Source: Alphaproteobacteria bacterium (GTDB lineage: Bacteria > Pseudomonadota > Alphaproteobacteria > DSM-16000 > Inquilinaceae). Taken from it: a stretch of DNA of 37,283 nt. How positions within the stretch are numbered: position 1 is the first letter of the stretch; each line of letters starts with the position of its first letter. The DNA lies in contig JANQKE010000081.1 in the NCBI GenBank assembly GCA_028281265.1, positions 1-37,283 on the forward strand, written 5' to 3'. The notes beneath the pieces were generated by a model. The model was given only the letters and a program-made list of their open reading frames with translations, was not told the origin of the DNA and searched no databases. The position numbers and the translations under genes were made by a program. Below are positions 4,121 through 37,283 of this stretch, piece after piece.

Positions 4121-4330
4121 CGGACGGTCACTCTCCGGTCGGGACGGCAGGCAGCGGGGCCGGCAACGGCTTGCCGACCACCGCATCGGTCGGTCCTGGC
4201 GATAGCATCGCCGGGGGGCGGCGGCCTAGCCCGCATTTCTCACCGGCTGGCGCGATGATCGGCCCGGTCGTCCCCGAAAACGCCCCGGATCACGACGGTG
4301 GCTTCGAAGACAGAGCGGCATGCCGGCCGG

Positions 4331-6255: not shown

Positions 6256-6342
6256 CCACCACCGCGGATTGCTTTCCCCTGCATGCGATTGTATGGTCCT
6301 GCGGGAAAACCAGGACGATCCTTGTCGGAAGATGCCTCCGCC

Positions 6343-6855
6343 GTGACCCGCAATCCCGTTGGCCGACCCCGCCTATCGCAATCGCGTCAGATCGATGCCC
6401 ATGTCGGTCGCAAGGTTCGCCAACGCCGGACGCTCCTGGGCATGAGTCAGGAGAAACTGGGCAATCTGCTCAATCTGACGTTCCAGCAGATCCAGAAATA
6501 CGAGAAGGGGAACAACCGGGTCAGCGCCAGCCGGTTGTGGGAGCTGGCGCGCGCCCTGGACGTCCCGGTGTCGTACTTCTTCGAAGGGCTGGAGCCGGAG
6601 ATGCGGACCCTGGCCGCCACCGGCCTGCGGGAGGAGCCGGTGCCCCCGCCCATCCCGGATCCGCTGGCCCGGCGGGAGACGCTGGAGCTCGTCCGCGCCT
6701 ATTATCGCGTGTCCGACCCCATGGTCCGGCGCAAGCTGTTCGAGCTGATCAAGGCCGTCGCCCCCACCCCTTTGGTATCCGCGGATGAGGACGAGACCGT
6801 GGTGGGCCGGGCGGGAGCCGACCGTGACCCGCGCTCGCCGGGCGATCGCACCTGA
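6343..6855 (+). CDS. XRE-family helix-turn-helix transcriptional regulator
   Basis: About 170 residues from GTG 6343. The helix-turn-helix spans roughly residues 17-72 ([21 protein letters not shown] ... [36 protein letters not shown]). This is the alphaproteobacterial XRE type in which the C-terminus carries an [29 protein letters not shown] helical motif. Such proteins are small DNA-binding regulators of developmental, envelope or general functions; the targets here are unknown. The start is uncertain: the frame also has GTG 6253 and TTG 6322. I prefer GTG 6343, preceded by GGAAG and leaving a normal-length N-terminus. Inverted repeats upstream may be its own operators. Confidence 0.85.
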
Positions 6856-6865
6856 CGCCCTCCCG

Positions 6866-6890
6866 TGCCGGCGCGGCGTGCGGGCCGGCA
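6866..6890. terminator. Stem-loop between convergent XRE and Nudix genes
   Basis: TGCCGGC and GCCGGCA form a perfect 7-bp stem around an 11-base loop, in the 63-base gap between convergent genes. There is no U-tract, so termination is inferred from position and pairing only. Confidence 0.4.
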
Positions 6891-6918
6891 GGACCGCCCG
6901 GCGGCCCGCCTTTCGCGA

Positions 6919-33004: not shown

Positions 33005-35668
33005 TCACTCCGCCGCCGCCTTCAGCTTGGGCCGGTCCTTGCCGGCGGTCAGCGGGTCGACCCCGTCGAAGCAGTCCTGAAGGATCTGCTTGAGCTCCGC
33101 GATCAGCGGGTAGCGGGCACCGGTCGGGGTGCACTGGTCGTCGAAGGCCTGCACCGCGAGATCGTCGACCACGGCCGTGAATGCCTGTTCCCCGACCCCG
33201 GCTTCCCGCAGGGACGCCGGCACGCCGAGATCCGTCTTGAGGTCCTCGATGGCGGCGATCAGCCGGTCGATCTTGGCGTCAACATCGTCGGCGCCGAGCC
33301 CGTCGCTGAGCCCGCAATAGTCGGCGATCCGGGCGTAGCGGCCCTTGACGAAGGGGTACCGGTATTGCGGCATCACCCCCATCTTGGTCGGCTGGTCGAC
33401 CGCGTTGTAGCGGATGACATGGCTGATCAGAAGCGCGTTGGCCAGGCCGTGGGGGATGTGGAACGCCGCCCCGACCTGGTGGGCGAGCGAGTGGCAGATG
33501 CCTAAGAACGCGTTGGCGAACGCCATGCCGGCGATGGTGCCGGCATAGTGCATCTTGGACCGGGCCGTGGGGTCGGCCGCCCCGCGATGCACGCTGCGGC
33601 CGAGATACTTGAACACCAGCCGGATCGCTTCGAGCGCCTGGCCCTCGGTCATGTTGGACGAGAAGATCGAGGTGAAGGACTCGATCCCGTGGGTCATGAC
33701 ATCGAGCCCGGTATGGGCCGCCAGGCCCGGCGGCATCGACATCACCAGCTCCGGGTCGACGATCGCCACGTCGGGGGTGAGCTGGTAGTCCGCGATCGGG
33801 TATTTGACACCCGTCCTGGCGTCGGTCACCACCGCGAACGGGGTGACTTCCGAGCCCGAGCCCGAGGTGGTCGGGATCGCCACCATGATCGCCCGGCGGC
33901 CGAGTTCCGGGAACGCGCAGATGCGCTTGCGGATATCCATGAAGCGCAAGGCGATCTCGGCGAACTCGGTCTCCTGATGCTCGTACATCAGCCAGGCGAT
34001 CTTGGCCGCGTCCATCGGGGAGCCGCCGCCCAGCGCCACGATCACGTCGGGCTCGAAGCCGGCGAGCTCACCCAGCGCCTCCCGGACGTTGTCGAGGTCG
34101 GGGTCGGGCCGCACCCCGGCATAGACCCGCCAGTGGAGGCCGACCGATTCCAGGATGTCGCCGACCCGGGCGACATGGCCGAGCTGCTCCATCGTCGGGT
34201 CGGTGATCAGGAAGGCGCGGCGCTTGCCCTTGAGCTCTTTGAGCGCCTGGGACAGGGCGCCGGTGTCGAAATAGATCTTCGGCGGCACCTGGTACCACTG
34301 CATATGGGTCCGCCGGGCGGCCACGGTCTTGACGTTGAGCAGGTGCTTCACCCCGATGTTCTCGGACACCGAGTTCCCGCCCCAGCTCCCGCAGCCCAGG
34401 GTGAGGGAGGGGGCGAGGCGGAAATTGTAGACGTCGCCGATCGCACCCAGGCTCGACGGCATGTTGATCAGGATCCGCCCCGTCACCATGGCGGCCTGGA
34501 ACGCCTCGATCCGGTCGGTCCGGCCTTCGTCGGTGTAGAGGACCGAGGTGTGGCCCGCCCCGCCGAACGCGACCACCGCCCGGGCGGTGTCGACCGCTTC
34601 CGTGAAATCCTCGGCGACGTAGAACGCCAGGACCGGGCACAGCTTCTCCCGGCTGAAGATCTCGGTCTCGCCGACCTCGGTGCAGTCGACCATCAGCACC
34701 TTGGTGTCGGCCGGTACGGTGATCCCGGCCCTCTCGGCGATCTTGGGCGCGGCCTGGCCGACCACGGTGGCGGCGACATGGTCGTGGCCGTCATTGAGGG
34801 CTTGCGCGAGCTTCTCCCGCTCCTCCCCGGTCACGAACACCGCACCGCGGCGGGCGAGCTCGGCCCGCACGGCCGGTTCGGCGGCGCGGGTGACGATCAT
34901 CGCCTGCTCGGACGCGCAGATCATCGAATGGTCGAAGGTCTTCGACATCAGGACCGAGGACACGGCCATCTTGATGTCGGCCCGCTCGTCGACCACGACG
35001 GGCGTGTTCCCGGCCCCGACGCCGATCGCCGGGGTGCCGGAGGAATAGGCCGCCCGCACCATGCCGGGCCCGCCGGTTGCCAGGATCAGGTTGATGTCGG
35101 CATGGTGCATCAGCGCCTTGGTGGTCTCGACCGTCGGCTGCTCGATGCAGGCGAGGATGCCGTCGGGCGCGCCGGCCTTGACCGCGGCCTCGTGGACGAT
35201 GCGCACGGCCTGGGCGGTCGACTGCTTGGCGCGCGGGTGGGGGGAGACGACCATGCCGTTGCGGGTCTTCAGCGCGAGCAGGCACTTGAAGATCGCCGTG
35301 GAGGTCGGGTTGGTGGTCGGCACCACCGCGGCGACCAGGCCGATCGGCTCGTAGAGGGTCCTGAACCCGCCGCCGGGATCGTCTTCGGCCACCCCGCAGG
35401 TCGGGGTGTCGCGGTACTGGTTGTAGATGTACTCGGCGGCGAAATGGTTCTTGATGACCTTGTCCTCGACCACGCCCATGCCGGTCTCCGCGGCCGCCGC
35501 TTGCGCCAGCGGGATGCGGTGGGCGGCCGCGGCCATGGCGGCGTCGCGGAAGATGCGGTCGACCTGGTCCTGGTCGAACCTCGCATAGGCCCGTTGCGCG
35601 TCCCGGGTCCTGGCGATCAGGGCGTCGAGATCGGTCGGGGCGGCGAGGGGCGTCGCGGTGTCGGACAT
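33005..35668 (-). CDS. adhE: Bifunctional aldehyde-alcohol dehydrogenase
   Basis: An 887-residue AdhE of standard length. The N-terminal half is a CoA-acylating aldehyde dehydrogenase with catalytic Cys about C251 in FDHSMICASEQA and NAD-binding GGPGMVRAAYSSGTPAIGVGAGN. The C-terminal half is an iron-dependent alcohol dehydrogenase with GGGSPMDAAK, SGSGSEVTPF, and metal ligands in GLDVMTHGIE, CHSLAHQVGA and PHGLANA. It converts acetyl-CoA to ethanol via acetaldehyde (or the reverse), consuming or producing two NADH. ATG 35668 is preceded by AGGAGG. Such a gene suggests fermentative or low-oxygen growth. Confidence 0.95.
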   Translation of the reverse strand: MSDTATPLAAPTDLDALIARTRDAQRAYARFDQDQVDRIFRDAAMAAAAHRIPLAQAAAAETGMGVVEDKVIKNHFAAEYIYNQYRDTPTCGVAEDDPGGGFRTLYEPIGLVAAVVPTTNPTSTAIFKCLLALKTRNGMVVSPHPRAKQSTAQAVRIVHEAAVKAGAPDGILACIEQPTVETTKALMHHADINLILATGGPGMVRAAYSSGTPAIGVGAGNTPVVVDERADIKMAVSSVLMSKTFDHSMICASEQAMIVTRAAEPAVRAELARRGAVFVTGEEREKLAQALNDGHDHVAATVVGQAAPKIAERAGITVPADTKVLMVDCTEVGETEIFSREKLCPVLAFYVAEDFTEAVDTARAVVAFGGAGHTSVLYTDEGRTDRIEAFQAAMVTGRILINMPSSLGAIGDVYNFRLAPSLTLGCGSWGGNSVSENIGVKHLLNVKTVAARRTHMQWYQVPPKIYFDTGALSQALKELKGKRRAFLITDPTMEQLGHVARVGDILESVGLHWRVYAGVRPDPDLDNVREALGELAGFEPDVIVALGGGSPMDAAKIAWLMYEHQETEFAEIALRFMDIRKRICAFPELGRRAIMVAIPTTSGSGSEVTPFAVVTDARTGVKYPIADYQLTPDVAIVDPELVMSMPPGLAAHTGLDVMTHGIESFTSIFSSNMTEGQALEAIRLVFKYLGRSVHRGAADPTARSKMHYAGTIAGMAFANAFLGICHSLAHQVGAAFHIPHGLANALLISHVIRYNAVDQPTKMGVMPQYRYPFVKGRYARIADYCGLSDGLGADDVDAKIDRLIAAIEDLKTDLGVPASLREAGVGEQAFTAVVDDLAVQAFDDQCTPTGARYPLIAELKQILQDCFDGVDPLTAGKDRPKLKAAAE

Positions 35669-36412
35669 CGGGAGAACCTCCTGGGGAAAGCGGGAGGGAA
35701 AGGGCAGGGCTGCACGGGCTTTCGGCACTCAGGCAGCCGCCCGCCCCCAGGGGTCGGCCCTCCGGGCGGCGGTGTCGTCCGTCATAAGAGGCGGTGTGCG
35801 GTCGCGCGCAAGCGGCTGGGCGGCCGGTCCGGCCGGCACCTTGCGTTTCTGAGCTACCTCAATGGGATCGCGGCGTGATTCGCTAGACTGATGCGTTATC
35901 GGCTTGGGTTGGTGGGGGCGTCTTGGAGCCTACGCGGTGGCCGCCGGCGTGCTCGCACGGCACCTCGACATCGCTTGCTCGGGATTGATCGAGGCCATCG
36001 CCCCGTGCAGCGGCAAGACCAACCTGCAGCGTCACGGCCATCTCTCCTCCGCTTATTGTCCGCGGCCGAGTTGCATCGCCGCCGGTGGGGACCATTGCAG
36101 ACCGTCCGCACTGGGTCCGCGACATGACATCCAACGAAGATGGGGGTCTGCACCCTCCAGGTCAGCGCTTTGGAGGGCCTTGCTACTGTCTGAAAGCTAG
36201 CCCTCGCTTTCCGGAAACGGCGTGACCCGACATCGCCGCCAGATGAAGACGCAAACATCCCGGGGGGCTCACCAGCTTCACTCACTCAGTTCTGGCGAAG
36301 ATGCGATAGTTCGAGGGTAAAGGCTATTTTCGGTTGAATATCATACACAGAACTGGCCAGATGTGGCGGCTCCATCCAACCTGCCGTCTGCGTTCTGTCA
36401 ATCGCATGCCTG
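35669..36412. other. 744-base intergenic transition zone before luxI
   Basis: The first half is GC-rich and holds the adhE promoter. From about 36180 the composition drops toward the AT-richer luxI segment. A 52-codon minus-strand frame (36041-35883), with GGAGGAG before its ATG, is the only candidate gene; it matches nothing I recognise, and I leave it uncalled. CCCTCCA (36153-36159) and TGGAGGG (36171-36177) form a stem-loop. The zone could contain the junction of an acquired element, but I see no repeat or integrase. Confidence 0.5.
36352..36371. promoter_or_regulatory. Possible lux-box-like dyad before luxI
   Basis: ACTGGCCAGATGTGGCGGCT contains GCCA and TGGC arms four bases apart, with a partly symmetric flank, about 42-61 bases before the luxI start. 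Lux boxes are 18-20-base dyads of this style, but the match is imperfect and no LuxR gene is visible. Confidence 0.3.
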
Positions 36413-37084
36413 ATGATTAGACTCTTTCAAGCCAACGAACCTGATCTTGAGGATCATGTTCGATCCATGCATCGCTTTCGGGCGCAATTGTTTGGTGACG
36501 AATTGGGCTGGGATGTGATTGTCGATAGTGATCTATGCGAGAGAGATGAATTTGATCGAGTAGACACAGTTTATTGTACCGTCAGTACGGTCGATGGAGA
36601 GATGATCGGCTGCTGTCGATTAGTTGATTGCAAAATGCCTTACATGATCAAGGAAAAATGGAATTATCTACTGCTATCAATTGAAAATCCGAGTCTAAAG
36701 ACTTCTTGGGAACTTAGCCGATTCGGTGTTCTGAGCCGTAACTTAGATATAATGGCACGATTGAAGCACGGTCAATCCGTTGCGACTCAGTTATTCTATG
36801 GTGTGGTTCGGTTCTGCTCTATTGTTGGCATTAATGACATCTATGCCTTACACAGTGACAGTGTCGAGCGAGCCGCACGAAAATTAGGATGTTGCCCTGC
36901 TGCTACTAGTAGTTTCATGATGATAGGAAAGGATCGTTGTCGGGTTGGGCGGTATGCTATCGATGAAGAACTGTTCCATAAACTGGGCGCACAGCTCAGC
37001 GCCGATCAGCGGCAGTGCGAATTCAGTGAACACCTTATCTGGCGTGTGTGCGAGCAGATTGCAAAAGCTGAATTGGAGGTGTGA
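36413..37084 (+). CDS. luxI: LuxI-family acyl-homoserine-lactone synthase
   Basis: A 223-residue AHL synthase, which makes a quorum signal from S-adenosylmethionine and an acyl carrier. All expected invariant residues are present: R23, F27 and W33 (FRAQLFGDELGW), E43, D45 and D48 (ERDEFDRVDT), R69 (GCCRL), E100 and R103 (SWELSRFGV). Length is typical. Base composition and codon use are clearly less GC-rich than neighbours, so horizontal transfer is likely. No clear Shine-Dalgarno precedes ATG 36413. There is no luxR beside it in this window; it could lie to the right. The acyl chain cannot be deduced from sequence. Confidence 0.92.
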   Translation: MIRLFQANEPDLEDHVRSMHRFRAQLFGDELGWDVIVDSDLCERDEFDRVDTVYCTVSTVDGEMIGCCRLVDCKMPYMIKEKWNYLLLSIENPSLKTSWELSRFGVLSRNLDIMARLKHGQSVATQLFYGVVRFCSIVGINDIYALHSDSVERAARKLGCCPAATSSFMMIGKDRCRVGRYAIDEELFHKLGAQLSADQRQCEFSEHLIWRVCEQIAKAELEV

Positions 37085-37216
37085 ATGATTCGGATTATCT
37101 CGGACCCTATTGCCTTTTTTGTGGGGCTGGCGAGCGATGAGAGGCGGTTCAGATGGTTCTGGCTCTTCGAGAAGGGGCCTCTAACCCGGATTGATCACAG
37201 CGTGGTGTGTTTGTGA
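37085..37216 (+). CDS. Small 43-residue reading frame directly after luxI
   Basis: Its ATG follows the luxI TGA with no gap. It encodes 43 residues beginning MIRIISDPIAFFVGLASDE and ending at TGA 37214-37216. I do not recognise it. The tight junction suggests cotranslation with luxI, but it could also be the decayed start of a larger gene; the composition matches luxI. Confidence 0.35.
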   Translation: MIRIISDPIAFFVGLASDERRFRWFWLFEKGPLTRIDHSVVCL

Positions 37217-37283
37217 CGGTGTGGTCCCAGTTTGTCGTGTTGATCGACGCGATGGTGGTTTTTGGGATGCTCGAGGCATGGGA
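37213..37283 (+). CDS. Start of an unidentified gene, cut by the window edge
   Basis: GTG 37213 overlaps the previous frame's TGA (GTGA) and the frame stays open for 23 codons to the edge, giving a hydrophobic start (VTVWSQFVVLIDAMVVFGM). This resembles an N-terminal membrane segment. Too short to classify; the gene would be the third of a luxI-led operon. Confidence 0.3.
   Translation, partial: MTVWSQFVVLIDAMVVFGMLEAW

Follow-up and report, generated by a model that had tools for sequence, protein, structure and literature searches.

What is a luxI gene doing at the very end of an alphaproteobacterial contig, in unusually AT-rich DNA, with two small frames directly behind it and no luxR beside it? 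The DNA analyzed here (the window) is the entire 37,283-base contig C190 (JANQKE010000081.1) of the assembly G000 (GCA_028281265.1; 232 contigs, 4.33 Mb, 99.4% complete, 0.53% contamination), from a bacterium of the family Inquilinaceae. A first-pass annotation had suggested that its right end may be the edge of an acquired quorum-sensing island with an unusual luxI-led operon. The reading favored here, to which we give about two chances in three, is that the window carries part of an acquired luxI–cytochrome P450 cassette that lacks luxR and has been split by an insertion sequence (IS), and that in relatives where the cassette is intact it belongs to a three-gene circuit in which the signal would be oxidized. 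What is unusual about the locus, as read from its sequence, is the pairing of luxI with a P450 gene; the rest is ordinary, an IS at which the assembly breaks inside a probably acquired segment.

A P450 Gene behind luxI Is Split by an Insertion Sequence

The features at the right end of the window are as follows (GC3, guanine-plus-cytosine content at third codon positions).

36413–37084, + strand: luxI, homolog of acyl-homoserine lactone (AHL) synthase genes; intact, 223 amino acids, GC3 0.44
37075–37079, + strand: GGAGG, ribosome-binding-site-like, inside the 3′ end of luxI and five bases ahead of the P450 ATG
37085–37184, + strand: 5′ part of the cytochrome P450 gene, 33 codons plus one base including the target duplication; continues at G000:C218:104-1347
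37085–37216, + strand: small frame 1, an artificial 43-amino-acid frame in which the P450 start runs into IS DNA
37181–37184, no strand: target-site duplication CTAA, with its second copy at C218:100-103
37185–37283, no strand: end of an IS1380-family element, transposase 3′ side, the transposase being on the − strand; contig and assembly break
37213–37283, + strand: small frame 2, behind the GTGA junction and entirely inside the IS end

The luxI stop codon (37082–37084) is followed with 0 bases between by an ATG at 37085, and a GTGA lies at 37213–37216. Both junctions that the first-pass annotation had described thus exist, yet the GTGA junction and the frame behind it are IS DNA and not part of an operon. 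Only 37085–37184 of small frame 1 is native, the IS end beginning at 37185, and the two small frames were rejected as operon genes because frame 1 is the P450 start plus IS DNA and frame 2 is IS DNA throughout. What is left of the luxI-led operon is a luxI-led gene pair.

The last 99 bases of the window (37185–37283) recur at 96–99% identity in seven other contigs, in five cases at a contig end and in two within 250 bases of one; copies this similar suggest a young insertion. On contig C100 the same end continues into a C-terminal piece of a transposase (PF13701, DDE_Tnp_1_4 type), and one plasmid match of the IS end carries the annotation IS1380 family transposase. The terminal inverted repeat is weak (13 of 24 terminal positions alike), and the interior of the IS is missing from the assembly. 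The bases preceding the IS are CTAA in the window, versus CTAG (six) or TTAG (one) at the seven other left ends.

A PF00067 search of G000 found a P450 without a start on contig C218. Positions 1–99 of this contig are the other IS end, followed by CTAA and then by the P450 to position 1347; its first 103 positions resemble the DNA upstream of the start of an IS1380-type transposase on C203 (73 of 103 positions alike). Because the IS end in the window lies on the transposase 3′ side and that on C218 on the side of the transposase start, the two are opposite ends in one orientation. Joined at CTAA, the reading frame comprises 447 codons, while the two alternative phases run into stops after 38 and 42. 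Positions 106–1347 of C218 match PF00067 at 217.9 bits, the I-helix motif AGHETS, the motif ESLRLYP, and the heme-cysteine motif FGTGARICLG are present, and GC3 is 0.44 in luxI and 0.48 in the P450 gene. Read across this inferred join of C190, the IS, and C218, the P450 gene is split in codon 34 by an IS1380-family element and spread over the two contigs.

The luxI Product Has the Features of an AHL Synthase

By domain, invariant residues, and predicted fold, the luxI product is assigned to the LuxI-type AHL synthases. It matches PF00765 (Autoind_synth) at 77.3 bits against a curated cut-off of 24. As the first-pass annotation had stated, every invariant residue is in place: the 12 columns that do not vary in an alignment of 10 LuxIs are all conserved here, including R23, F27, W33, D45, D48, R69, E100, and R103, which we take to be the LuxI catalytic invariants (R, F, W, D, D, R, E, R). 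The predicted structure has a predicted local distance difference test score (pLDDT) of 90.2, and its 12 best matches in the PDB are all AHL synthases. BjaI comes first and TofI, LasI, and RpaI are among the top folds, while a sequence search of solved structures ranks TofI first. With the coenzyme A (CoA)–dependent BjaI leading one search and TofI the other, the donor may be acyl-CoA or acyl–acyl carrier protein.

The protein is also very divergent, with a highest identity of 28% in the tree set described below, and falls below the NCBIfam cut-offs of TraI-type models. Close relatives were found neither in the genome-contig collection nor in the viral-contig collection, identity was below 60% in all 484 plasmid records with a match, and the DNA from 35690 to 37283 had no plasmid match. 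LuxI-like sequence was seen as weak matches in three phage-collection records (OQ572407.1, CAKLQH020000009.1, and CAKLQF020000013.1), two of them annotated lasI, which may be host contamination or phage-borne genes.

The luxI–P450 Pair Recurs, in Two Genomes as a Fusion

A class sample of 385 genomes was searched, of which 50 had a LuxI match, including that of the window. The 59 confirmed LuxI loci are the 59 places outside the window, minus one with stop codons (G230) and plus one from the family sample (G012). A P450 is present at 10 of the 59 (9 of 58 without G012). In eight of these (G219, G198, G320, G284, G150, G331, G250, and G058) it lies directly downstream on the same strand; in two family genomes, G004 and G012, P450 and LuxI are fused in a single 686-amino-acid chain, P450 first, and in G012 both domains exceed their Pfam cut-offs. 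At both fusion loci (L090:2614-4674 in G012:C244 and L091:6667-8727 in G004:C61) luxR is divergent and an XRE-type regulator lies downstream. Neither 20 hisH loci nor 18 chance loci contain a P450.

Named genomes were scanned with a four-row LuxI query, three rows of which are P450-linked, and with this biased query a P450 lay downstream within 1.2 kb at 27 of 76 loci. Carriers include Pelagibius litoralis DSM 21314 and Ferruginivarius sediminum WD2A32, in both of which Pfam confirms LuxI and P450, as well as Amorphus coralli DSM 19760 and Rhodospirillaceae bacterium SYSU D60014. Records titled Candidatus Marinimicrobia (L203, L205, L208, and L216) show luxI-P450-luxR in the layout of Rhodospirillaceae metagenome-assembled genomes; their titles may be wrong.

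Since three named loci, carrying the same P450s as G198, G219, and G320, repeat class-sample ones, the two surveys give 34 distinct linked loci besides the window. All 34 have luxR in the flank, upstream in 18, convergent behind the P450 gene in 11, and divergent in 5 (the fusions counted as divergent), so that the order luxI then P450 is constant while the position of luxR varies. The window is the only linked locus without an adjacent luxR. The number of P450 matches per linked genome ranges from one to five, and in G320, G331, and G058 the luxI neighbor is the only P450 found. Beside the pair, the next most frequent neighbors after luxR are an XRE regulator (8 of 36 loci), another gene (8 of 36), and a 12-locus cluster resembling antisense frames.

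In a tree of 60 LuxIs the P450 label requires 6 changes, whereas shuffled labels require 10.3 and in none of 500 cases so few; all 11 P450-labeled LuxIs fall in one 25-row half, with weak support (68/55). In a quick tree of 44 P450s, which leaves out eight short unlinked fragments and three identical copies, the linked ones require 3 changes versus 8.4 (0 of 500 as low). The window P450 groups among the luxI-linked P450s, at a highest identity of 33%, and apart from the sole other P450 of its own genome that is long enough for the tree.

No LuxR Was Detected in the Genome

It had been noted that no luxR lies in the left flank, and the absence proved wider. A PF03472 search of G000 at E values up to 10 gave a single match, 12.3 bits on contig C135, which was set aside as chance, being below the cut-off of 23. 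The same search exceeds the cut-off in 13 of the 15 genomes with PF00765 or P0001 matches, the misses being G000 itself and G001, whose PF00765 match is weak. This negative covers the assembled DNA. A profile built from a Pfam-checked LuxR scored at best 1.2 bits on the window and C218, against more than 100 bits at every P450-linked locus, and tblastn of 40 LuxRs found nothing there at E values up to 0.1; on these two results a decayed luxR in the window or on C218 was rejected. A canonical luxR–luxI circuit includes a cognate LuxR in the genome, and the G000 assembly contains none over the cut-off. LuxI loci without luxR in the flank examined number 7 of 59 in the class sample and 16 of 76 among the named loci.

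The Foreign-Looking Segment Is Short and Probably Acquired

Two features flank luxI on the left.

33005–35728, − strand: adhE-type acetaldehyde-CoA/alcohol dehydrogenase gene, a 907-amino-acid open frame; host-type, GC3 0.93
35729–36412, no strand: intergenic region, changing from host-like to AT-rich at about 36150–36300; no LuxR remnant found

The likelier ATG of the adhE-type frame lies about 20 codons into it, and the product is presumably as named, judging by family features of the translation. The abrupt change in composition reported for the right end is borne out. GC content is 0.51 at 36001–37000 and 0.64–0.77 in every other 1-kb step of the window; it is about 0.70 before the last full kilobase and 0.42–0.51 over luxI. 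The GC3 of luxI is 0.438 against a mean of 0.882 (standard deviation 0.080) for 21 long open reading frames of the window, chosen by a mechanical rule that favored high GC3; two of them (0.61 and 0.70) may be wrong frames. Across the join, in 300-base steps, GC content stays at 0.37–0.51 from about 36300 to about C218:1000 and reaches 0.62 at C218:1169; just past the P450 gene it is back at host level. Neighboring sequence of the same composition, which would have spoken against the first-pass reading, is not seen on either side: both flanks differ from the segment.

The foreign-looking segment, luxI plus the P450 gene between adhE and hisB, is only about 2.2 kb long. Beyond the IS it ends about 1.25 kb on, at hisB, which is met 3′ end first; this gene was named by eye and matches at 62–79% the hisB that adjoins hisH in relatives. 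hisB directly adjoins hisH in 14 of 16 family relatives, while a contig end truncates hisH in the remaining two; additional hisH copies without hisB occur in some family relatives. In G000 the single hisH found is on C227, beside a different gene (PAS-like, by eye), and hisB is on C218. Conservation of luxI in relatives, another refuting condition of the first-pass annotation, is lacking: PF00765 occurs in just 4 of 17 family genomes, namely the window's own, the two P450–LuxI fusions, and one weak match. Because of its GC3, the broken hisB–hisH synteny, and its being absent or different in most of the family, the luxI–P450 segment was probably acquired horizontally. Of the acquired island edge, therefore, the foreign composition and the probable acquisition stand; the contig ends where the assembly broke at an IS present in several copies, and a larger island to the right is not supported.

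Relation to Known Systems

The LuxI of the window shares PF00765, the invariant columns, and the fold with the synthases BjaI (5w8a), TofI (3p2f/3p2h), LasI (1ro5), and RpaI (6wn0), at 21–24% identity to BjaI, TofI, and LasI in structural alignments. It differs from the known LuxI synthases in that its gene is followed by a P450 gene and no LuxR was detected in the genome.

For the P450, a sequence search of solved structures places CYP102A1 (P450 BM3) among the best matches; we know of no link of P450 BM3 to luxI. Like the activity proposed here, that of CYP102A1 is directed at AHL acyl chains, which it hydroxylates at ω-1 to ω-3, and it is discussed as a means of signal interference (PMC3355433); BM3 itself is a P450–reductase fusion. 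The marine Rhodobacteraceae strain MOLA 401 makes poly-hydroxylated AHLs, and its authors propose that a genomic P450 oxidizes the acyl chain; that P450 is not stated, in the text available, to adjoin luxI, and its role is a proposal there as it is here (PMC5479921). The R1–I1–crotonase system of Mesorhizobium japonicum is a three-gene AHL circuit in which an unusual acyl chain depends on the linked third enzyme (PMC10470506). In both cases luxR and luxI are accompanied by a linked gene for an additional enzyme, of the crotonase superfamily there and a P450 here; function was tested there and is conjectured here, and the window copy is without luxR. In the sphingomonad luxI–phyH arrangement an oxygenase gene likewise adjoins luxI, although it codes for a phytanoyl dioxygenase, not a P450, and is convergent at the described luxI solo (PMC4288048). 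A Bradyrhizobium luxI/R neighborhood is mentioned as rich in monooxygenases in a paper whose text gave no match to "cytochrome" (PMC13136126), and in PMC12654047, as far as its available text goes, luxI and P450 both occur and are not linked. Among the matches listed in the full-text literature, from which most subscription journals are missing, there was no report of a luxI–P450 linkage or fusion.

A Proposed Signal-Oxidation Circuit and Its Alternatives

AHL chemistry is usually predicted from LuxI alone. What the sequences themselves show is the anatomy of the locus, a P450 gene split by the IS (once the two contigs are joined), an assembly without PF03472, and linkage and fusion that recur. 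The proposal reaches further. In the intact relatives the pair would be transcribed as an operon; LuxI would make an AHL, the P450 would oxidize, most simply hydroxylate, the acyl chain of this AHL or of its acyl donor, and the LuxR beside the pair would selectively read the oxidized product. In G000, where the cassette would have arrived by acquisition, the chain would be broken at the P450 and at the receptor, and at most an unmodified AHL would be made. Signal oxidation is favored because of the fusion, the constant order of luxI and P450 with a moving luxR, the acid–alcohol pair in the I helix, and two precedents, namely the hydroxylation of AHLs by CYP102A1 and the need of the Mesorhizobium signal for a linked third enzyme. 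Such an acid–alcohol pair is expected of a monooxygenase.

More generally, oxidized or poly-hydroxylated AHLs could be explained by a P450 whose gene accompanies luxI and in some cases is fused with it; if so, private signal dialects would be predictable from genomes. The intact versions suggest an undescribed kind of signaling system in which an oxidase modifies the signal, and the window would serve as a natural negative control, with a luxI that has lost its tailoring enzyme to an insertion. In its fullest form the proposal holds that luxR–luxI–P450 is a recurrent three-component circuit of Alphaproteobacteria, with a dedicated and sometimes fused P450 that makes an oxidized AHL read selectively, and that the window holds a moved, receptor-less cassette whose P450 is inactivated by the IS. 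This stronger version is put forward tentatively, at a little under even odds.

Several observations weigh against the favored reading. We know of no activity for any luxI-linked P450 of this set. At 49 of the 59 sampled LuxI loci there is no P450, several flanks being short or cut by contig ends. In the luxR–luxI–P450 type of the named scan, about 100–570 bases separate the luxI stop from the start of the P450 profile match, and cotranscription is not assured. The heme pattern is present in 30 of 35 linked P450s and the I-helix pattern in 28 of 35; one of the five heme-pattern misses (G284) is cut by a contig end and the other four are without explanation. The first 32 P450 residues of the window alone match no Pfam family, and against a profile of five luxI-linked P450s from other genomes the score of the first 33 is a low 3.9 bits, which 0 of 2000 shuffles reach. 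The linked LuxIs are not one clade (0% of bootstrap trees contain one), so more than one origin of the pairing is possible, and the LuxI and P450 of the window are both on long branches, their placements unsure.

The main rival to signal oxidation makes the P450 gene a quorum-controlled target or companion that has no part in making the signal and serves secondary metabolism, detoxification, or the clearing of the signal that the cell itself produces. Quorum systems often regulate neighboring genes, and the enzymes that P450s of this type resemble act on many substrates. In addition, oxidation by CYP102A1 lowers the activity of AHLs in an Agrobacterium bioassay (PMC3355433). Against this stand the two genomes in which P450 and LuxI share one chain and the constant place of the P450 gene behind luxI while luxR moves. 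The window copy, moreover, keeps the pair without luxR, and no gene besides luxR is comparably conserved next to the pair; we consider this account unlikely, if less so than the assembly-based ones considered next. A different question is whether the window locus is a decaying, functionless remnant whose luxI is useless too, which would be compatible with signal oxidation in intact relatives. The split P450, the lack of a detected LuxR, and the marked divergence of LuxI speak for decay, whereas the full luxI frame, with its invariant columns and confident fold, and the near-identity of the IS copies, which suggests a young insertion, speak against it. LuxI loci without luxR are not rare, as counted above, and solo luxI genes can be active, to go by the title of a Ruegeria paper. 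A useless luxI is possible, but we lean toward doubting it.

Two further alternatives concern the assembly. One follows the first-pass reading and supposes a larger acquired quorum-sensing island running to the right, with luxR, an integrase, and more operon genes. The sharp change in composition and the synteny break at hisB would fit such an island, but C218 holds just the remainder of the P450 gene before hisB and host-like DNA, no PF03472 protein in the genome exceeds the cut-off, the window contains no tRNA, and its end is an IS common to seven other contigs. An island of this kind now seems very improbable. Hardly more credible is that C190 and C218 are not neighbors and, having broken at unrelated IS copies, show luxI and a truncated P450 gene by chance. 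That the IS interior is absent leaves the join indirect, and eight left ends but only one right end of the IS were recognized; yet of the eight left ends only that of the window has CTAA, the duplication also present on C218. The two contigs agree, moreover, in reading frame, in P450 content, in AT-richness, and in the orientation of the IS, and the luxI–P450 pair recurs elsewhere.

Additional Observations

A small XRE-type regulator gene lies in the window at about 6335–6900 and resembles, by eye, the gene found near luxI–P450 pairs in 8 of 36 loci; the regulator near the pairs may be merely a common alphaproteobacterial family. A 16-mer, TAGCCCGCATTTCTCA, at 4227–4242 of the window is IS-end-like and a near-match to an IS-like end on C52, either by chance or as a scar. 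The IS end on C52 had itself been considered as the other end of the window's IS and was dropped, as it occurs only once. A second, related IS end occurs on contigs C113 and C210 (73% over about 99 bases) and on C160, which has the terminal motif. Together, many contig ends of G000 (C23, C48, C53, C100, C109, C110, and C126; C113, C160, C210, and C52) look like IS ends, of at least three types, and many breaks in this assembly may be caused by ISs.

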